36,450 nt of DNA from an uncultured Pseudomonadota bacterium. GTDB lineage: Bacteria > Pseudomonadota > Alphaproteobacteria > Rs-D84. The notes under the pieces were generated by a model. It was given only the letters and a program-made list of their open reading frames with translations. It was not told the origin of the DNA and ran no database searches. Made by a program: the position numbers and the translations under genes. The DNA lies in contig CACYHY010000003.1 of NCBI GenBank assembly GCA_902774305.1, positions 1 to 36,450 on the forward strand, given 5' to 3'. Positions 6,895 to 36,284 of this stretch are shown here, one piece after another (position 1 is the stretch's first letter; each line of letters begins with the position of its first letter).

Positions 6895-7836
6895 TTAAGC
6901 AACTGTAACCGCACATTTGACAATCGCAGTTGGGTGAGAAACCACACAGCCACAGCTTGTCAAAACAGACCACAACATTTGGAAGTTGTTTTGTGCAGGA
7001 ATCATACGGTCACTGATTTTCTTAATAGCAAAGTGAGCCGCTGATTTGATTCCAGCGAAGATTGTGCAGACGTTGGAAGCATTTGTTTCCAAGTTTGAAG
7101 ATTCTAACACCACCAAACCTGCGATTGTTCCACGAACAACACCATCTTTCCACAAAGCATTCTTATCTGTCATATCGACTTTCACAAATGCTGGTTCTTT
7201 CAAAATGAAACGCATTACATCTGGGTTTACACAGACATAACCAACTTCTTTCAAACCACGGTCGCCCGCCAAGTCAGAAACATTGGACACTGGAGTTGCA
7301 CCGGCTTTTTTCAAAACAGCGGCAGCTTGCAACAACAAGTCATAAACGTCACCAGCAGCGGCGGTTGTAGCATTGAACGCAGTCAATGTTGTACCAGCAG
7401 CAGCAGTAATTGTGTTCATAACAAATGTGTCAACATATTTTGACAAAGCATACAAACCACGTTCGATAATCTTTGCTTGGAAAGCAACATCAGCAGTTTT
7501 CAAAGCATAGTCTTCGAATTTAACTGCAGTAGATGGAGTTTCTGTCAATTGCAATACATAATCATCGACAGCGGCTGTGCCGTAAGAAATTGTACCTTCA
7601 GTACCTGCTGTACCTGGAGTTGCACTACGTGTGTAGTAATTCGCAACAGTTACAGAAGAATCGTTTACCATACGTAAATGAATCGCATCAGAGTTATCTG
7701 ACAATTCAGAAGAGTGGTCAACGGCGATGTGTTTATACACACCAACCAAGGATAAGTTTTTCAGCAACACCTTAGACCATTTTTCCGAAACGGCATTATA
7801 AGGTGCGATACCATTCAAAAATGCATTATTAGACAT
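6895..7836 (-). CDS. Major capsid protein
   Basis: A 313-residue protein directly downstream of scaffold and spanin-like genes, with AAAGGAAAAAACA before the ATG. The texture is that of an HK97-fold coat: SEKWSKVLLKNLSLVGVYKHIAVDHSSEL at the N-terminus, an Ala/Thr-rich centre (TITAAAGTTLTAFNATTAAAG), then VGYVCVNPDVMRFIL and VVRGTIAGLVVLESSNL. The pairing 'V.P....L' and 'G.I.G..V..S..L' is typical of phage coat proteins with a P-domain/A-domain arrangement. It has its own 142-bp leader with a conserved 22-bp element and is followed by a stable hairpin, both consistent with high expression. Confidence 0.85.
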   Translation of the reverse strand: MSNNAFLNGIAPYNAVSEKWSKVLLKNLSLVGVYKHIAVDHSSELSDNSDAIHLRMVNDSSVTVANYYTRSATPGTAGTEGTISYGTAAVDDYVLQLTETPSTAVKFEDYALKTADVAFQAKIIERGLYALSKYVDTFVMNTITAAAGTTLTAFNATTAAAGDVYDLLLQAAAVLKKAGATPVSNVSDLAGDRGLKEVGYVCVNPDVMRFILKEPAFVKVDMTDKNALWKDGVVRGTIAGLVVLESSNLETNASNVCTIFAGIKSAAHFAIKKISDRMIPAQNNFQMLWSVLTSCGCVVSHPTAIVKCAVTVA

Positions 7837-7944
7837 TGTTTTTTCCTTTATTTTGTCTAAGTTAATTCTGTGTTTCGGATCAAAAAATTGTCTGTTCGCT
7901 TCGGGCCTTTCGGTTATCCAATTTGAATCAGGTTTTTAGCTTCC

Positions 7945-7966
7945 TTACTATATAATAAACAAATCT
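7945..7966 (-). promoter_or_regulatory. Late 22-bp element, copy 1 (ahead of capsid)
   Basis: On the minus strand the element begins AGATTTGTTTATTATATAG. It is identical to 35912-35933 and has one mismatch to 27487-27508. It sits 109 bp before the capsid ATG in an otherwise non-coding leader. It contains an AT-rich -10-like core (TATATAGT) but I find no -35 at the right distance. I infer a late promoter or other shared control signal. Confidence 0.6.
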
Positions 7967-9737: not shown

Positions 9738-10197
9738 TTTCTACCTCTTTTTGTGCTTTTTTTGTTGTTTTATGTGATTTTTTCACATTTTTTGCAGATT
9801 TTTCATCAATTTTGACTTCTTTTTCAACTTCAGCTATTATTTTTTTATTGTCTGCATCCAAAGTTTCCATATCTTTCTTTACTTCATCTTCGCCACGGAC
9901 ATTAATATCTGCTTTAGCTATCGCATCTGCAGCAACAGCTGGGTCACAATCTTCTGTCATTGTAGAGAATGGTTCTATAGCATCTTTCAATGCATTTTGC
10001 CAACCATCACGAATATCAATACCTAGCAATTCGTTGAATTTAATACGGTCTTTCATAGCCTCAACAAATGCAGACTTTGTTAAAGGATAGCAGTGACTAA
10101 ATGCACCGTTACGACCAAAATGTACACCATTGCACACTACAGCAAATCCACCCATAGATTCAGGTTCAAATGAAAAAGCAATTAATTTTCTAACCAT
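9631..10197 (-). CDS. Protein with charged, Lys/Glu-rich tail, unknown
   Basis: 188 residues; GGAGTTAAAAAA precedes the ATG. Residues 1-80 look globular (MGGFAVVCNGVHFGRNGAF, then FVEAMKDRIKFNELLG). Residues 100-165 are a highly charged helical region (KKDMETLDADNKKIIAEVEKEVKIDEKSAKNVKKSHKTT is the pattern across the region), and the tail is Ser/Pro/Asp-rich. The last 107 bases are shared with the 63-residue gene, so the disordered tail may be free to vary under the constraint of the other frame. No family recognised. Confidence 0.65.
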   Translation of the reverse strand: MVRKLIAFSFEPESMGGFAVVCNGVHFGRNGAFSHCYPLTKSAFVEAMKDRIKFNELLGIDIRDGWQNALKDAIEPFSTMTEDCDPAVAADAIAKADINVRGEDEVKKDMETLDADNKKIIAEVEKEVKIDEKSAKNVKKSHKTTKKAQKEVENDDKREEVVANSSESTGNEPDSGVSAEGTSTPDNA

Positions 10198-10418
10198 TTT
10201 TTTAACTCCATTTTTGTTCTTTCGAAATCACAGAATTTTTGCAAACCCTTGTGATAACGTTGTTCGGTTTGTCTTTCCAACTTTCCAGCCCACATAAAGT
10301 AAGTTGTTATGTTGGCATCTTTTGTTTTGTGCCGACAATACAATTCGTAAGCCAGCCCAGCCCTTTCGGGATATTTTTTAGTAAGATACTGCCATTTAGC
10401 AATCTCTTTCTCCGTCAT
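10182..10418 (-). CDS. 78-residue protein coupled to terminase
   Basis: The ATG at 10418 overlaps the terminase TGA (ATGA) and has a very strong GGAGGAG about seven bases upstream, so I take this start over a longer in-frame extension into the terminase gene. The protein (MTEKEIAKWQYLTKKYPERA...) is basic and helical, with many Tyr, Lys and Arg, and ends in ELKKWLEN. Its C-terminus overlaps the next gene's start by 16 bases. Function unknown. Confidence 0.7.
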   Translation of the reverse strand: MTEKEIAKWQYLTKKYPERAGLAYELYCRHKTKDANITTYFMWAGKLERQTEQRYHKGLQKFCDFERTKMELKKWLEN

Positions 10419-11776
10419 ACATACACTCCTCCGCCTGCAGCCTTTCTCAGAGATAGTTCCCACATCTCTTTTATAGTTTGTGTTCTTGGTTTTTCAACCT
10501 TTACAAAATTCTCTAATACAGGGTCGTTCGTCATTACACAGTATGAAGCCGCATCAAAGATATGCGACTTGGCATAGTCAATCGTTTTCATACCAGGACG
10601 AGCAGGCACTTCAATAATATTGCCGTTTTTATCATAACTTAATAACTTGCACGAGTGGCACAAATGCCGACACTCTGGATTTACCAGTATATGTGGCTTT
10701 CCATCTAGCCCCCGAACGTGCCAATCAAAGTTATTAACCCTATTACTAATACTGGTATTTGCCTTTGGAACCTGAAAATCAAACCGTATCCGTTCCTTTG
10801 TAAGCACTTGCTCAATAATAGCATAGTTTGAAAATTCGCTGTTTGACGACCTATTGCGACCCGAAGCATCTCCGTTTATAACCAGTGGTCTGCCGTCGTA
10901 CTTTTTTTTATACAGTTTTACAAACTCTTCAGCAACCCTATATGTAGATACATTTTCTAATACAATCTCATCACTAAAGTAAAAATCACTGCCACCGTTC
11001 CAATGGCATATAACCGAGCATTGCGGATTGACGTTAAAATCAAGCGACCAGTAGATTGTATTGCTTTCCTTGCCAATTCCGATGTTCTTTTCAGGGTTCC
11101 AAGAACGAACCACTGGCATATCTACGGCTGTACGCAATCTGCCAAGGTAGATTCGCTCATAGTCATCAGGGCGATTGGCTTTCATCATAGCAATATCTTG
11201 CAAAACAGACTTTGGCAACTTGAACGGGTTATACCGAAAATCCTTGTAGCAGTAATACACGTCAGGGCGTCTAGGAGCCTCAGGCCCGAATAACTGAAAC
11301 ACCACATCAGACTCTTCATCAGGGTTTCCAGCAATAATAATAAACGACCCCGCCTTACGTATAGTCGGGGCAAATGATTCCCAAGATGTCGTCGATATAG
11401 CCTGGGCTTCTTCAATAAACGCAACGTCTATATTCGCCATAGAACGTATGTTATGTTGGTTTGTTTCCTTCAGCCCCTTAAAAATAATTTCACTGCCAGT
11501 TGCCGGGCAGTAGATACTTTCTTTGTAAATTTCAAAAGGCAGGGCATTGTTTATAATCTCGTCAGAAAGCTGTGCGTGAACCGAGTCCTTAATCGAATTC
11601 TGCGTTTCACGAACACAAGCAATTTTTAGCCTTTTCATCATAGCAATAGTCAGCAACGCCCTCGCAATATTAGTGGACTTCGCCAAACCAAGTCGCCCAC
11701 TAAGATACACCAAGTAGCGATACTTGTAGTGACGTATATTCTGAATAATTGGGCGGTAGTCGCTGATTATGTCCAT
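10415..11776 (-). CDS. terL: Terminase large subunit
   Basis: 453 residues with both halves of the packaging motor. The N-terminal ATPase shows a Walker A at about residues 26-36 (SGRLGLAKST; the usual GxGKS/T reads GLAKST here), the 'CVRETQNSIKDSV' adenine-side segment, and Walker B at about 115-123 (IDVAFIEEAQ, hydrophobics then E-E). The C-terminal RNase-H-like nuclease shows its acidic residues in SLDFNVNPQ, VINGDASGRNRS and SHIFDAASY. It pumps DNA into the procapsid and cuts it. The start overlaps the small-subunit stop (TAATG). The departure from a canonical Walker A is worth noting but occurs in terminases. Confidence 0.92.
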   Translation of the reverse strand: MDIISDYRPIIQNIRHYKYRYLVYLSGRLGLAKSTNIARALLTIAMMKRLKIACVRETQNSIKDSVHAQLSDEIINNALPFEIYKESIYCPATGSEIIFKGLKETNQHNIRSMANIDVAFIEEAQAISTTSWESFAPTIRKAGSFIIIAGNPDEESDVVFQLFGPEAPRRPDVYYCYKDFRYNPFKLPKSVLQDIAMMKANRPDDYERIYLGRLRTAVDMPVVRSWNPEKNIGIGKESNTIYWSLDFNVNPQCSVICHWNGGSDFYFSDEIVLENVSTYRVAEEFVKLYKKKYDGRPLVINGDASGRNRSSNSEFSNYAIIEQVLTKERIRFDFQVPKANTSISNRVNNFDWHVRGLDGKPHILVNPECRHLCHSCKLLSYDKNGNIIEVPARPGMKTIDYAKSHIFDAASYCVMTNDPVLENFVKVEKPRTQTIKEMWELSLRKAAGGGVYV

Positions 11777-16207: not shown

Positions 16208-16222
16208 AAAAAACTTGCTTTT

Positions 16223-16253
16223 TGTCTTAAATATAAAAAAATGGTGTTATACT
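16223..16253 (+). promoter_or_regulatory. Extended -10 promoter, copy 1 (recombination genes)
   Basis: TGTCTTAAA at 16223 and TGT-TATACT ending at 16253, with an A-rich spacer. The 31-bp layout matches 19928-19958 and 23049-23079 exactly in length. The TGn motif directly before the -10 is typical of extended -10 sigma70 promoters that tolerate a weak -35. Confidence 0.65.
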
Positions 16254-16284
16254 ACAAAAAAACAAACTAAAAAAGGGGGTCAAA

Positions 16285-18083: not shown

Positions 18084-18116
18084 AAAACCAGTCAATATAA
18101 GGAAAGGGTATTGAAA

Positions 18117-19910
18117 ATGGCTTACGAACTTTTTATTACAGATAATCAGCAAGCTTTAGATCAAAATAAAATATTTTTACCACGTATTGTAATTGCTCGC
18201 AAAGAGATTCCAGATATAGCATTCCCAGAAGACGTAACGGACGTTATTTTAGACGGCAGCGATACTGAATTATTGGATATTTTTAAGAATGCAAAAAAAT
18301 GGTATTTGCCAAAAGGTCTTGATTTTAGTGAAAATCTTGATATAATGAATAAGTCGTTTATCGGCGGTAGAGTTGCTTATACGCCAACTCCCCTCAAGCA
18401 ACCCACCGTCGATGACGATTATTTATCGGGGGAAGCCCTTTCCAAATCTAATTCTCCTGTTTCCCCCGACCTTGATTCTTTTACTGAAGATGATTATACA
18501 CAAAATGAAATTCCACTTACAGACCAAATAGAACTATTGCAACCGTTATTAGAAGGCAAAAAAATAGGTGCTGGGTCGATTGCCGAACTGACTTGTCAAC
18601 TCATAGACTTATGTAAAAGCAATACCTTGTTTATGCGTGACACCGTGACAGGACTTTATAAAAGTGCATTTGCTCGCAAACCTTTAATATCAGAACACCA
18701 AGCAGAAACTATTTTTGAAACGCATTTTTGGGATAAATTATCAATCAAAACAAATTCTTATGTCACAGACAAGGAAACCGGTATTACTACAAAGGGTTAT
18801 AAATATCGTGATATAAAACCACAAGAATTAAAATTATTATGGAAAAACATAGGGTTATATAGCACATTCAATTCACGCAAGGAATTTTACGATGCGATAC
18901 CTGAGTGGGATGGTGTGGAACGAATTAAAACATTTATGAAAAAATACTTTGAGTGCGACACTAACCCAAACTTTTTCTTACTATTGATGACGAGTATTGT
19001 TGCAAAGTTCAGCCCAAGAAATGATTACTGCCCGTATTTTTTTGATATTGTGTCAAAATCAAAAGGTATTGGAAAATCGTTCCTGTGTAGACGGCTTATT
19101 CCAAGCAAATACTGTGGCTTTTTAACAATGGCAACACGCAGTAAAGACGACTTCTATGTGAATGCCTACGATGGAAATAATGTGTTAGTTGTTGATGACG
19201 AGTGTACTTGGGTTGGCAAAGGCCCCGGCAAAATAGATATGGAACAATTCAAAACTTTAGTCACCACACCACAAGATAAATTCTCAAGAAAATTTCAAAA
19301 TCCAGAATTACACGACAGGTCGTTTATAATTATAAGAACCTGCAACGATGTGAACCAAGTATATTCCACTAACGAACGGCGGCAAATTATTTTTGAATGC
19401 CACCTGCCCGAGCAAGAGTGCCGCATAAAAGAAGATTTGTTGCCAGACAGCTTTTTTGAACAAATGCTTGCTGAAGCAAAAGATTATTATGTTAAGAACG
19501 GCGTTTATAAAATGACCGACGATGACCGAATTGATGTAAAAGAAACCAACTTGAATAATTATAATTGGGAAACACCTGAGAATTATATTATATTAGGTTA
19601 TATCAAAGCAATTCGTGACGAACCGGATAAGTGGGGTGTTAAACCCGTTGCACAAAAGTTTCATAACAGGCAGTGGGGTGGGCATAAGAATTACTGTGAG
19701 TATTGCGACGAACGCAGAAAACAACCACTGCCGAGCCGTGCTTTTTGGCGGTCAATCGCAGCTTTAAGTGAACTGCCTGAAAACAAAATTTGTATTATTT
19801 CCGACCAGAAATATGCTTTGGAAGACGGTGGGTTTGCTAGGATATTTGCCATAGACCCGCTAACGCCAATGACAGACGATGCCGATGAGATACCCGATAT
19901 ACCATATTAA
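18117..19910 (+). CDS. VapE-like P-loop ATPase, probable replication helicase
   Basis: About 597 residues. I choose ATG 18117 (MAYELFITDNQQ) with AAGGAAAGGG eight bases upstream, over a TTG two codons earlier. The middle carries EWDGVERIKTFM, the typical opening of the virulence-associated E domain, then Walker A SKGIGKSFLCRR, Walker B NVLVVDDECTW, and a sensor/arginine-finger region (RSFIIIRTCNDVNQVYSTNERRQ). VapE-type proteins replace a DnaB-like helicase in many phages and islands. The first 230 residues show no primase motif that I recognise. With no DNA polymerase in the genome, this is the main candidate to start replication with host enzymes. Confidence 0.82.
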   Translation: MAYELFITDNQQALDQNKIFLPRIVIARKEIPDIAFPEDVTDVILDGSDTELLDIFKNAKKWYLPKGLDFSENLDIMNKSFIGGRVAYTPTPLKQPTVDDDYLSGEALSKSNSPVSPDLDSFTEDDYTQNEIPLTDQIELLQPLLEGKKIGAGSIAELTCQLIDLCKSNTLFMRDTVTGLYKSAFARKPLISEHQAETIFETHFWDKLSIKTNSYVTDKETGITTKGYKYRDIKPQELKLLWKNIGLYSTFNSRKEFYDAIPEWDGVERIKTFMKKYFECDTNPNFFLLLMTSIVAKFSPRNDYCPYFFDIVSKSKGIGKSFLCRRLIPSKYCGFLTMATRSKDDFYVNAYDGNNVLVVDDECTWVGKGPGKIDMEQFKTLVTTPQDKFSRKFQNPELHDRSFIIIRTCNDVNQVYSTNERRQIIFECHLPEQECRIKEDLLPDSFFEQMLAEAKDYYVKNGVYKMTDDDRIDVKETNLNNYNWETPENYIILGYIKAIRDEPDKWGVKPVAQKFHNRQWGGHKNYCEYCDERRKQPLPSRAFWRSIAALSELPENKICIISDQKYALEDGGFARIFAIDPLTPMTDDADEIPDIPY

Positions 19911-19927
19911 AAAAATATTTAACAAGG

Positions 19928-19958
19928 TGTCTTAAAATAGAAAAAAAGGTGTTATAAT
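19928..19958 (+). promoter_or_regulatory. Extended -10 promoter, copy 2
   Basis: TGTCTTAAA at 19928 and TGT-TATAAT ending at 19958, same 31-bp length as 16223-16253 and 23049-23079. It drives the run of membrane, lipoprotein and enzyme genes from 19985 on. Confidence 0.7.
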
Positions 19959-19984
19959 TAAAACGAGCAACAAAAGGAGTAAAA

Positions 19985-20362: not shown

Positions 20363-21136
20363 ATGATAGTGTGTTGGTTTTCTTGTGGTGCGGCATCTGC
20401 CTGTGCAACAAAACTAGCCATTGAAAAATATGGTAGAGAGAATATTCGTGTTGTGAATAATCCCGTTATCAACGAACACCCAGATAACAAACGGTTCTTG
20501 GAAGATTGTGAAAAGTGGCTTGGCATTAAAATTGAAAGTGCCACTAACCCTTGTTTTAAGCATTGCGATATTACAAAGGTATTTGATGATTACGGAGTTA
20601 TGTCAACACCACACTTTGCACCTTGCACATTGGAATTAAAACAAAATGCTAGGGCGCAGTGGGAACAAGATAACAATTATAATAAAGATACTGATGCGAT
20701 TGTTATGGGTTATACAGTGGAAGAAAAACAACGGCAAGAACGGTTTAATTCAGCACCAAAGAACAAAGGTTATAAACTGATTTGTCCACTGATAGATGCT
20801 GGTTGGGATAAACATCGGTGTTTTAATGAACTTGAAATGGCAGGCATTAAATTGCCAGAGATATACACCAAGTTTGAATTTCCAAATGCAAATTGTATTG
20901 GTTGTGTAAAATCTGGTTCGGTCTGGTATTGGCAGTTGGTTCGCAAACGCTTTCCAGAAATCTTTAAGCAGAGAGCAGAACAATCACGCAGATTGGGTTG
21001 CCGGCTGGTTGATATGGGGAAAGACCACGAGCCAAGGCATATATTTTTAGACGAATTGCCAGAAGATGCGGTTGGCAGAAAACCAAAATCGTGTTATGTA
21101 GAGTGTGGTATATTCTGCACATTAGGGCAACAATAA
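20363..21136 (+). CDS. PP-loop ATP pyrophosphatase, PAPS-reductase-like
   Basis: 257 residues; ATAGGGGGTTAAG precedes the ATG. The N-terminus CWFSCGAASACATKLAIEKY is the PP-loop (usual SGGxxS; here SCGAAS), after which VVNNPVINEHPDNKRFLED and PCTLELKQNARAQW follow the family's order. Ten or more Cys occur, including CIGC near residue 178 and a terminal CYVECGIFC cluster, which could bind metal or an Fe-S centre. Phages often carry such enzymes; roles proposed for relatives include sulphur assimilation and thiolation of nucleic acids (DndC-like). The substrate cannot be read from sequence. Confidence 0.8.
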   Translation: MIVCWFSCGAASACATKLAIEKYGRENIRVVNNPVINEHPDNKRFLEDCEKWLGIKIESATNPCFKHCDITKVFDDYGVMSTPHFAPCTLELKQNARAQWEQDNNYNKDTDAIVMGYTVEEKQRQERFNSAPKNKGYKLICPLIDAGWDKHRCFNELEMAGIKLPEIYTKFEFPNANCIGCVKSGSVWYWQLVRKRFPEIFKQRAEQSRRLGCRLVDMGKDHEPRHIFLDELPEDAVGRKPKSCYVECGIFCTLGQQ

Positions 21137-23035: not shown

Positions 23036-23048
23036 TTTTTTTCAATTT

Positions 23049-23079
23049 TGTCTTAAATTAGAAAAAACTATGTTATAAT
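23049..23079 (+). promoter_or_regulatory. Extended -10 promoter, copy 3 (SSB-like gene)
   Basis: TGTCTTAAA at 23049 and TGT-TATAAT ending at 23079; identical length and layout to 16223-16253 and 19928-19958. It would raise the SSB-like protein independently. Confidence 0.7.
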
Positions 23080-23105
23080 ATCAATGTAAACCAAAAGGAA
23101 ACCAA

Positions 23106-23456
23106 ATGAAAACGCAAGAAACTAAAGTAAAAGTATTAGATAAAGAAACCAAAACCGGCACTACAAATGGTCGTGATTGGGAAATAACCGAATACACAAT
23201 CGTTGAAGAAACAGAATATAAAGATGGTTCTGTAACTGAAATTAAAGTTCGTGCCACCGCAGCACAATCGCTTGGTGAATTGGAAGTTGGTGCCGAATAC
23301 AATGTCGTATTGTTCATCTCATCTCGTGACTATGAAAAAGACGGCAAAAAGAACTTCTGGAACTCATTCCGTATTACCAAGGCAGAAAAAGTCAGTGATG
23401 CCGAACCAAAAGAAGAAGTTGTTGTGCCTGCCGAAGAAGATTCATTACCATTTTAA
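23106..23456 (+). CDS. SSB-like single-strand DNA-binding protein
   Basis: 116 residues; AAAAGGAAACCAA precedes the ATG. The body is all-beta with a pattern like the DUF3127 single-strand-binding family (NGRDWEITEYTIVEETEYKDG; then GELEVGAEYNVVLFISSRDY). The tail is acidic and ends DSLPF, the usual SSB C-terminal tip (D-x-x-PF) that recruits partner enzymes. It would coat ssDNA during replication and recombination. Confidence 0.78.
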   Translation: MKTQETKVKVLDKETKTGTTNGRDWEITEYTIVEETEYKDGSVTEIKVRATAAQSLGELEVGAEYNVVLFISSRDYEKDGKKNFWNSFRITKAEKVSDAEPKEEVVVPAEEDSLPF

Positions 23457-23471: not shown

Positions 23472-23672
23472 ATGAAGTTATTGTCAGTACAAGAAGTGGC
23501 AAAAATTCTAGGCTGTGGCGAAAGCACGGTTAGAACAAATGCTAAAAAAGGAACCTTTGGGTTTAGAGTTGTTAAAGTTGGATCATTGTGGAAATTCCCA
23601 AGCAACGAAGTCTATAAATATTTATATGGCGAAGGCTGGGAAGAACACGTACCAGAACCGGAGATGATATAA
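23472..23672 (+). CDS. Helix-turn-helix DNA-binding protein (MerR/excisionase type)
   Basis: 66 residues; AAAAGGAAAGCAA precedes the ATG. LLSVQEVAKILGCGESTVRT is the helix-turn-helix, followed by the wing VVKVGSLWKFPSNEVYKYL. This is the HTH_17 family used by excisionases and small regulators. With no integrase gene, a regulator role for the early/late switch is more likely than excision. Its stop overlaps the next ATG (TAATG). Confidence 0.8.
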   Translation: MKLLSVQEVAKILGCGESTVRTNAKKGTFGFRVVKVGSLWKFPSNEVYKYLYGEGWEEHVPEPEMI

Positions 23673-24303: not shown

Positions 24304-24459
24304 ATGAAATCTTGGAAAAATGAGCGCAAACGCAGATACCGTCGTTTAAAAATGCGAAAAGATATATCTGAGTGGGCAGACCAGCTTAAAAAAATGTATT
24401 GTAGCAGTTTTAGAACTATAAGTTTTATTGGGAGCACAAATGAACCTGAATCTAATTAA
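24304..24459 (+). CDS. 51-residue basic protein, unknown
   Basis: ATG 24304 follows TAGGGGTGTAAAA; a longer in-frame opening would cover the structured stretch and lacks a ribosome site. The N-terminus is extremely basic (KSWKNERKRRYRRLKMRKD), suited to RNA or DNA binding. It overlaps the next gene by 20 bases. Lying right behind the candidate RNA, it could bind it (speculation). Confidence 0.55.
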   Translation: MKSWKNERKRRYRRLKMRKDISEWADQLKKMYCSSFRTISFIGSTNEPESN

Positions 24460-24781
24460 TCTTGATTGCACTCAATGGAGTAAGGCTGACTGGAACGATG
24501 CGTATAACCAGTATTGCCAGCATAATATGTTCGGTGCTAAAACCAAGCGAGAATATTATGATATGGTGATAGCAAACTTTGAAAAATTAGCACATAAAGA
24601 AAAACAGTTTCACGAATTAAATCAAAAATGGTTACAAGGCTGGCGAAACGCTGTTGTGTGGGCAAAAAAACGCAAATGTAATATAAATGGCGAGTCGTTA
24701 GAAAAAATTCGTCCGGAGATTGATTTGGAGAGTTTGCAAAACGACGTGAGGGAGATACAATGGCAGTTAGCACAAAAATAA
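24440..24781 (+). CDS. 113-residue protein, unknown
   Basis: ATG 24440 (MNLNLINLDCTQWSKADWND) has GGGAGCACAA upstream; a TTG 12 bases earlier is too close to that site to be used. Rich in Trp, Tyr and Lys, helical (YDMVIANFEKLAHKEKQFHE). It overlaps the upstream gene by 20 and the ERCC4 nuclease gene by 22 bases, and probably works with it. No family recognised. Confidence 0.65.
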   Translation: MNLNLINLDCTQWSKADWNDAYNQYCQHNMFGAKTKREYYDMVIANFEKLAHKEKQFHELNQKWLQGWRNAVVWAKKRKCNINGESLEKIRPEIDLESLQNDVREIQWQLAQK

Positions 24782-27266: not shown

Positions 27267-27449
27267 TTATTTTACAAATAATTTAACAAAACTCAGGATA
27301 GATACAATCATACCTGCACCAGCAGCAATATACATACCAGCATCAATATCCCAGATAGCCAGAACTGCTGTAATAGGTGCAATCAGATATTCGACTGTTT
27401 TGATTGTTTTATCTATAATTTCAGTTTTAGTCATTGTTTTTTTAGCCAT
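27267..27449 (-). CDS. Small holin-like membrane protein
   Basis: 60 residues; AAGGAGTAAATT precedes the ATG. Basic N-terminus, then IKTVEYLIAPITAVLAIWDI and AGMYIAAGAGMIVSILSFVK, two membrane helices, closing with LFVK. Size and Gly/Ala-rich second helix fit a small holin. It is the first lysis gene downstream of the late 22-bp element at 27487-27508. Confidence 0.65.
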   Translation of the reverse strand: MAKKTMTKTEIIDKTIKTVEYLIAPITAVLAIWDIDAGMYIAAGAGMIVSILSFVKLFVK

Positions 27450-27486: not shown

Positions 27487-27508
27487 TTAATATATAATAA
27501 ACAAATCT
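27487..27508 (-). promoter_or_regulatory. Late 22-bp element, copy 2 (ahead of lysis genes)
   Basis: One mismatch to the copies at 7945-7966 and 35912-35933, same strand. It lies 38 bases before the holin-like ATG and directly behind the hairpin 27507-27530, so a terminator and a new start signal appear to be joined here. Confidence 0.6.
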
Positions 27509-27530
27509 AAGGGGTGAAACCACCCCCTAG
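27507..27530 (-). terminator. Probable intrinsic terminator behind the tail-fibre genes
   Basis: Arms 27507-27516 and 27521-27530 pair over 10 bp with one G-U (CTAGGGGGTG / CACCCCTTAG) around a 4-base loop. On the late strand the stem is followed by ATTTGTTTATT, which is U-rich. It lies between the tail-fibre genes and the lysis genes. Confidence 0.65.
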
Positions 27531-27531
27531 A

Positions 27532-27567
27532 CTACTTTTTTCCACCTTTCTTTTTTCCGCAAGGCAT
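27532..27567 (-). CDS. Tiny 11-residue Lys/Gly peptide
   Basis: ATG at 27567 has AAAGGAGTGTAAAA upstream, and TAG at 27532 is two bases from the terminator stem. The product is MPCGKKKGGKK. The ribosome site is as good as those of real genes, so translation is plausible; a role is unknown. Confidence 0.4.
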   Translation of the reverse strand: MPCGKKKGGKK

Positions 27568-35268: not shown

Positions 35269-35898
35269 TTATCCTTCTTTATTATTTAATGCTGCTTTAG
35301 TTGCACCACCTGCCAATGCCGCACCAGCTGGGCCACCAACTATAGCTCCAGCAACTGTAGCAATACCGCTAAGTAAATTATTCTGCCAAGCATTATAGTT
35401 TGCTGTATTAGTCATATTAGCAGCTTGTTCAGCACCTTGATTGCTTTGTAAACGAGACAATATATTATTTGCCATAATATTACCTTGATTAAAGTAATTG
35501 CCTTCAATTCCAGACAATGCAGACAAAATATTTTGAACACGAGCATCTTCTTGTGTCATAGCTTGACGCATATCAGTAGCACGATTTGCAGCCAAACTAT
35601 TTAATATAGCCTGTGTTGCAGAACCACGAGCACCACGAGCAATAGCTTGAGCCCCTAATTCACGAGCATATTGTTGGTTGCTAGCATCTAACAATTCTTG
35701 ACGGGCACGAAAAGATTCATTGTTATATGAAGGGTTTATTAACTCATTCAAATATTGATTAATTCCACTTTGTGCAGCTTGAATACTTTGTGTTGCAGTT
35801 GGTGAAAGACTCACAATATCGGAATTAGCTGAACCAAATTCACCCCAATTATATTTTGTGCCAATTGATGCTGGCTTTACATCTGACGGTTGACCCAT
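35269..35898 (-). CDS. Internal virion / ejection protein (T7 gp14-like)
   Basis: 209 residues; AAAGAGGTAATTAAA precedes the ATG and lies inside the tail of the 22-bp element. Ala/Gln-rich helices (ARQELLDASNQQYARELGAQ; MRQAMTQEDARVQNILSALS) end in a hydrophobic Gly/Ala stretch (GIATVAGAIVGGPAGAALAG). Helical body plus Gly-zipper membrane segment is the hallmark of gp14-type proteins that form the outer-membrane part of the ejection channel. Confidence 0.7.
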   Translation of the reverse strand: MGQPSDVKPASIGTKYNWGEFGSANSDIVSLSPTATQSIQAAQSGINQYLNELINPSYNNESFRARQELLDASNQQYARELGAQAIARGARGSATQAILNSLAANRATDMRQAMTQEDARVQNILSALSGIEGNYFNQGNIMANNILSRLQSNQGAEQAANMTNTANYNAWQNNLLSGIATVAGAIVGGPAGAALAGGATKAALNNKEG

Positions 35899-35903
35899 TT
35901 TAA

Positions 35904-36284
35904 TTACCTCTTTACTATATAATAAACAAATCTATCGGTTGTTTTTATTTTTTTACCGACTTTTTCTAATAAAATTTTTGCAGGTCGTTTGTCTGTCTTA
36001 AAATATAAGTCTCCAAAATTCAAAGCAATCTGTTTTATAATCTTATCGCAAGGGACTTTTTTATGCCGACCAGCCCAACCAGAACAAAAAGTTCCTTTTA
36101 TTCCATCTGACTCATCATTATACACAGCAAATCCTGCAATTATATCACCTACATCTTCAGTTCGAACAACAAACATCGTAGCACCTTTATAAGCTAACCA
36201 CGGTTCGTGCATATTTTCTTCCCAAAGAATTATAGGGTCTGGCATCCAGTTAATAGGCGTGCCAAAAATCTCTTCTATATACAT
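35904..36284 (-). CDS. Small gp13-like protein preceding ejection genes
   Basis: 126 residues; the start (36284) lies two bases after the glycine-rich gene's stop, with AAAGGC as a weak ribosome site. Sequence INWMPDPIILWEENMHEPWL, then AGFAVYNDESDGIKGTFC and a final AKILLEKVGKKIKTTDRFVY. The strand order (YKGATMFVV / IIAGFAVYND / KILLEKVG) and location just before ejection genes recall T7 gp13 and other GNAT-like phage proteins. Its last residues (DRFVYYIVKR) are coded by the 22-bp late element. Family call tentative. Confidence 0.6.
   Translation of the reverse strand: MYIEEIFGTPINWMPDPIILWEENMHEPWLAYKGATMFVVRTEDVGDIIAGFAVYNDESDGIKGTFCSGWAGRHKKVPCDKIIKQIALNFGDLYFKTDKRPAKILLEKVGKKIKTTDRFVYYIVKR
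35912..35933 (-). promoter_or_regulatory. Late 22-bp element, copy 3 (ahead of ejection genes)
   Basis: Identical to 7945-7966, same strand. It overlaps the last codons of the gp13-like gene and is 14 bases from the gp14-like ATG. A short complementary pair (TCGGT / ACCGA) with an A-rich loop lies just upstream on the late strand. Confidence 0.6.

Follow-up and report, generated by a model that had tools for sequence, protein, structure and literature searches.

A -35-less element changing in concert ahead of three late operons of uncultured gut phages: a probable late promoter and a candidate winged-helix factor

Introduction

To our knowledge, only a few model phages have had their late-gene switching worked out. 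In T4, late promoters use TATAAATA. They are short -10-region promoters without a -35, at which a phage factor redirects the host polymerase, and the proteins involved are gp55, gp33, and the gp45 sliding clamp. Both the sigma-like gp55 and the clamp are needed (PMC2988020). In phage Mu, several late promoters with a poor -35 (Plys, PI, PP, and Pmom) depend on one phage activator, C, which has its site at the -35 or further upstream (PMC4461284). On the protein side, the BldC family has a MerR-like winged-helix fold, which resembles that of the phage excisionases (Xis, phrog_66). BldC and Xis bind asymmetric, non-palindromic sites. BldC occupies runs of 9-bp repeats as a chain, and its boxes are asymmetric and AT-rich, GATTTCCCC being one of them (PMC5859096).

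The element described here, as read below, would share with the T4 type the short -10 region, the missing -35, and a phage factor redirecting the host polymerase, and with the Mu type the set of several late promoters with a poor -35 under one phage activator. Its candidate factor resembles BldC in its predicted fold, in having a single domain of <70 aa, and in the asymmetric AT-rich site that it would read.

Phage genome and copies of the element

The window, i.e., the whole stretch of 36,450 bp analysed here, comprises a complete phage genome, circular and with a 99-bp repeat at its ends, and forms contig 3 of a 943-kb assembly. Early genes are carried on the plus strand and late genes on the minus strand. 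Megablast against cultured phages gave no match, and the identity of terminase relatives among cultured phages does not exceed about 32%. The VapE-like primase/helicase at 18111-19910 is the largest early protein and has only weak matches in cultured phages; the proteins scanned included no recognised DNA polymerase. Among the early genes, at 20363-21136, stands a phosphoadenosine phosphosulfate reductase-like gene (phrog_424), which G004 alone shares out of the nine relatives that were compared first.

The sequence-only reading had reported a 22-bp element in three copies, all on the late strand. This was borne out, and the copies and the genes that follow them are:

6895-7836, minus strand: major capsid protein gene (phrog_267, 5.6e-14), downstream of the capsid copy
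7945-7966, minus strand: late element, capsid copy, AGATTTGTTTATTATATAGTAA; proposed -10 TATTAT at 7952-7957, proposed start at ~7945
27267-27449, minus strand: 60-aa gene, downstream of the third copy
27487-27508, minus strand: late element, third-operon ('lysis') copy, AGATTTGTTTATTATATATTAA; proposed -10 at 27494-27499
35269-35898, minus strand: 209-aa gene, downstream of the ejection copy, with the ribosome site AGAGG immediately after the element
35912-35933, minus strand: late element, 'ejection' copy, AGATTTGTTTATTATATAGTAA, overlapping the end of gene 35904-36284; proposed -10 at 35919-35924

The sequence AGATTTGTTTATTATATAGT is exact at 7947-7966 and 35914-35933 and carries one mismatch (T for G) at 27489-27508. 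The window contains no further match at up to 3 mismatches, and at the same threshold dinucleotide shuffles of the window (n=100) gave no copies at all; for one given 18-mer, 2e-5 copies are expected in a sequence of the same composition. The 18-mer has no additional copy in the rest of the 943-kb assembly, and the looser core GATTTGNNTATTAT has one further match beyond the phage contig, the single loose match in the host chromosome. The proposed placement ahead of the capsid, ejection, and lysis modules holds for the capsid gene; the names 'ejection' and 'lysis' found no confirmation in family searches. At most second and third operons of the phages compared, a ribosome site follows within a few bases of the element.

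No -35-like hexamer is common to the three copies, and the pattern expected of a host sigma70 promoter (a TTGACA-like -35 at 16-18 bp) is absent from the element. The earlier statement that no copy has a sigma70 -35 is thus correct for what the copies share, but the lysis copy has a weak TTCACC-18-TATATT match, of a kind no commoner in the window than in shuffles. An asymmetric sequence of about 20 bp that lacks a -35 and stands once per late operon would also suit a T7-like single-subunit RNA polymerase encoded by the phage. Such an enzyme is nonetheless very improbable, and was rejected, as no gene was found and no early reading frame is large enough: PF00940 is absent from the assembly and from seven relatives (the control genomes gave no match either), and the unassigned early genes, none larger than about 260 aa, are too small. 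The open reading frames already point to the absence of any polymerase gene, in line with the first claim that none is recognisable.

Conservation and concerted change

Searches of viral contigs for terminase and capsid yielded 15 related records that include late starts, and one more relative, a contig in a MAG from yak rectum, came from a search of genome contigs (16 records in total). All three late starts are covered in 10 relatives and the window (11 phages), and one or two starts in 6 more. In every readable late start of the relatives, the element lies at the same site on the late strand, despite flanks that have often diverged. A search for the 22-mer in related genomes, which had been suggested as a check, thus found it kept at the same three places even where the neighbouring genes differ. 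At the third site, the first gene of the operon is the 60-aa gene in the window and belongs to other families in the relatives; as the element stands ahead of non-homologous genes there, it is conserved for itself and not together with a gene. The element was not found in a more distant relative (L092/G023, terminase 33%). Matches to the 18-mer pattern in the unrelated viral contigs L001, L002, L004, and L005 were discarded, being solitary and looking like chance. One 18-kb contig of the phage group (G013:C90; L068, L084), with a capsid protein 92% identical, is part of a MAG labelled Clostridia (yak rectum), a bin label that may be wrong for this contig.

An alignment of 30 sites from ten phages gives the consensus G-A-T-T-T-G-N-N-T-A-T-T-A-T, followed by a looser part ending in TAA. 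Over all types the core is GATTTG-NN-TATNNT, with a conserved A 7 bases beyond the TATNNT hexamer. Upstream of the box, the per-site alignment shows nothing common to the three sites but an A-rich stretch. The NN pair (positions 7-8) is TT, TG, GA, or GG, depending on the phage, and is identical at the three sites within each of the 11 phages. Most phages have TT, while TG is found in G011 and G012, GA in G002 and G008, and GG in G016, G017, and G018. The GG types have in addition exchanged TATTAT for TATTTT at all their sites, and base 15 is G at all three sites of both G010 and G012. Among TT-type phages, 19-21 of 21 positions of the element are identical where identity in the 60 bp upstream falls to 54-85%. 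Between the window and G002, the relation is inverted: no stretch at the capsid site is less conserved than the element (9/21), with 73% identity upstream and 90% downstream.

The within-phage uniformity of NN was reproduced in 1 of 200,000 shuffles of the types over 8 lineages, in a model that does not include relatedness. Three separated sites that change together to the same letters imply one trans-acting reader, which points to a single phage-specific factor that would recognise all of them. The element is almost certainly a late-gene switch read by such a factor.

The same observations bear on a repeated gene end, or chance AT-rich similarity, as the origin of the copies. The copy at 35912 is indeed also coding sequence (...DRFVYYIVKR*, giving RFVYYI), as had been noted. 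However, the other two copies are intergenic, they are kept in every relative and change in step, and phages of the GA and GG types would read RFGY in the same frame. A duplicated gene end, which the sequence-only reading had offered as its alternative, is refuted by the non-coding copies and the relatives, and chance similarity is vanishingly improbable.

Organization of the proposed promoter

The element is read here as the late promoter of a group of gut phages of about 36-40 kb, in which a GATTTGNN box takes the place of the -35 and the winged-helix protein described below is the most likely factor; the probability of this reading is put at roughly two in three (0.68). Host RNA polymerase would open the DNA at the -10 hexamer TATTAT (TATNNT over all types), and transcription would start near the closing AA of the element, as follows from taking TATTAT as the -10. 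The -35 being absent, a factor produced from the phage early genes would read the GATTTGNN box directly upstream of the -10 instead. The NN bases (TT, TG, GA, GG) would serve as the specificity key, the same at all three promoters and switched together. The sequence-only reading had placed the -10 at TATATAGT. This stretch falls on less conserved columns, and the start would then lie inside the ribosome site, and TATTAT with the GATTTGNN box is more likely. The original proposal of a -10-only late promoter working with a phage-encoded factor is thus supported by the relatives and by the concerted change, with the -10 relocated and the box added.

The plus strand carries early promoter-like repeats, in which TTGTC is followed after ~20 bases by TATAAT with a TG extension. 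These repeats and the two genes downstream of one of them are:

16220-16254, plus strand: early promoter-like element, copy
19925-19959, plus strand: early promoter-like element, copy
23046-23080, plus strand: early promoter-like element TTGTC...TGTTATAAT, preceding the genes for the single-strand DNA-binding-like and winged-helix proteins
23106-23456, plus strand: single-strand DNA-binding-like protein (phrog_4932, 8.3e-6), directly upstream of the winged-helix gene
23472-23672, plus strand: 66-aa winged-helix DNA-binding protein, candidate late specificity factor (HTH_17; BldC/Xis-like model), present in all 11 three-site phages

GA-type and TT-type phages have the same TGTTATAAT at these early promoters but different late elements, so a shift in the -10 preference of the host sigma does not account for the types. 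Host sigma as the sole cause was rejected on the constant early TGTTATAAT, the variable late element, and the one loose match in the host chromosome. The bases after TTGTC vary by lineage (GTCTTAAA, GTCGACAA, GTCCACA, GTCGGAAA) with TGTTATAAT constant, hinting at a second lineage-specific regulator.

The winged-helix protein might instead repress the late genes early in infection, with the element as its operator and host sigma70 as the usual reader of the promoter. In favour of this, the box overlaps the proposed -10 or borders on it, GATTTGNN and TATTATNN may be taken for the two units of an 8-base direct repeat, and the sites bound by BldC-family proteins are AT-rich direct repeats (PMC5859096). 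However, with no -35 and neither a canonical TATAAT nor an extended -10, host sigma70 alone should be weak at the element, and its invariance over 14-21 bp exceeds the need of an operator alone, which makes pure repression improbable.

Hairpins and leader of the late transcripts

Three structured regions adjoin the late element or lie downstream of it:

7892-7931, minus strand: conserved structured leader, an imperfect hairpin with a GAAA or UUCG loop, separating the capsid gene from the capsid element
27504-27533, minus strand: terminator-like hairpin whose 3' side runs into the element; hairpin sequences differ here in relatives
35934-35960, minus strand: weaker hairpin immediately ahead of the ejection copy

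All phages have a hairpin abutting the element of the third operon, with z reaching -7.7 in the strongest case and a weak hairpin in G018, and the sequences of its arms vary among phages with pairing retained. Weaker hairpins are found at many ejection sites and none at the capsid site. Most simply, the transcript from upstream would terminate at the point where the next one begins. As the upstream hairpin runs into the element at the third and many ejection sites, termination may be a second function of part of the element. The hairpin cannot account for the element as a whole, which stands at the capsid site without one. The A-rich stretch upstream of the box can pair with the element in the hairpins at two sites. 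An A-tract at about -33 from the box was considered as an UP element and set aside, because it can pair there with the T-rich part of the element.

Hairpins adjoining the element at two of three sites would also fit a cleavage or processing site in one long late transcript, creating new 5' ends before the three operons, and a trans-acting RNase or RNA-binding protein could likewise co-vary with its sites. Such an RNA-level signal has a low probability: the capsid site lacks the hairpin, the invariant part holds a -10-like hexamer, and terminator-like hairpins call for a new start downstream.

The leader hairpin of the capsid transcript was followed in 12 aligned sequences, in which GAAA and UUCG loops are exchanged and the stem is longer in the most distant relatives. 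Of the pair cells, 91% pair, and three pairs have changed on both sides, only modestly above shuffles. Rfam gave no match, the capsid leader included.

A winged-helix protein as candidate factor

Among the conserved early genes, no DNA-binding regulator other than the 66-aa protein (HTH_17 match, 1.4e-8) was recognised, and this protein would be expressed from the early promoter alongside the single-strand DNA-binding protein. Its AlphaFold model (pLDDT 88) has BldC and Xis as nearest folds. The best PDB match is BldC (6ama/6amk; Foldseek E 0.007-0.02, probability 1.0), and in the model the protein has a single MerR-like winged-helix domain and no effector domain, as would be expected of a BldC-family member. 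In the window, its best PHROG match is phrog_66 (Xis). A role as excisionase was rejected as unlikely, since a tyrosine integrase (PF00589) gave no match in seven relatives or on the window contig, with control matches in all 14 genomes.

The distance between versions of this protein correlates with motif type better than that of any other shared protein in each genome set tried (r 0.64-0.67; permutation p 0.003-0.04, uncorrected for about two dozen proteins and resting on 8 independent lineages). A 93-aa late protein (10182-10463), a neighbouring 74-aa protein, and an ERCC4-type nuclease correlate as well, and two neighbouring early proteins also score. G002 and the window, which differ in motif type, share 95% identity in the capsid and 89% in the terminase, but only 53% in the 66-aa protein; for G004, which has the TT type as the window does, the values are 85% for the capsid and 60% for the 66-aa protein. 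Given the small test (8 lineages), the many proteins, and the two scoring neighbours, the protein is a lead, and its role as the late factor, binding GATTTGTT DNA, is put forward as a testable guess. The unassigned small early genes had been named as the place to look for a factor, and this protein is now the concrete, if predicted, candidate among them.

A different phage factor, a tiny sigma-2-like protein such as T4 gp55, might be hidden among the early genes, with the winged-helix protein serving another role. A -10-only promoter with an invariant core is its expected product, and several small early proteins without a family are conserved in nearly all relatives. On the other hand, Sigma70_r2 has no match on the window contig (there are only two, on host contigs), a result to be read with the high divergence of gp55 in mind (PMC2988020). 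With a conserved GATTTGNN box ahead of the -10, a second contact is to be expected, and the model of the other universal small protein (24428-24781), too poor to classify, shows no sigma-like match. Taken with these points, a sigma-2-like factor seems rather unlikely.

Discussion

The proposed late promoter would work like the T4 and Mu C-dependent late promoters and falls under the sequence definition of neither, and it is called here a variant of factor-dependent late promoters. The T4 sequence TATAAATA is not what is found: the element has the core GATTTGNNTATTAT (TATTATAT/TATTTTAT) and, upstream, a GATTTGNN box. No relative of gp55 was detected, and a sliding clamp was not named among the proteins scanned. 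Compared with activation of the Mu C or P2 Ogr type, the three sites share nothing upstream of the box except the A-rich stretch, and the conserved bases immediately adjoin the -10. There is a resemblance between GATTTGTTT in the element and the BldC protomer site GATTTCCCC, and since BldC recognises asymmetric AT-rich 9-bp boxes, an asymmetric GATTTGTTT box is plausible on this resemblance. In contrast to the BldC chain, there would be one box plus a -10 here, and the protein is phage-encoded and known from sequence and a model. Excisionases share the predicted fold, but these phages have no integrase match.

A bolder proposal, still tentative, is that a winged-helix phage protein of <70 residues, BldC/Xis-like, replaces the -35 contact of host RNA polymerase through GATTTGNN against the -10, that the NN key is re-cut at all three promoters when the protein changes, and that the group thereby holds at least four orthogonal promoter-factor pairs. 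The compact -35-less late promoter proposed for this uncultured group comes with a natural series of co-changing sites (TT, TG, GA, GG) beside variants of one small DNA-binding protein, so that both the identity of the factor and its recognition of DNA can be tested by swapping pairs. Should the 66-aa protein prove to be the factor, it would rank with the smallest proteins known to confer promoter specificity and could supply orthogonal expression pairs.
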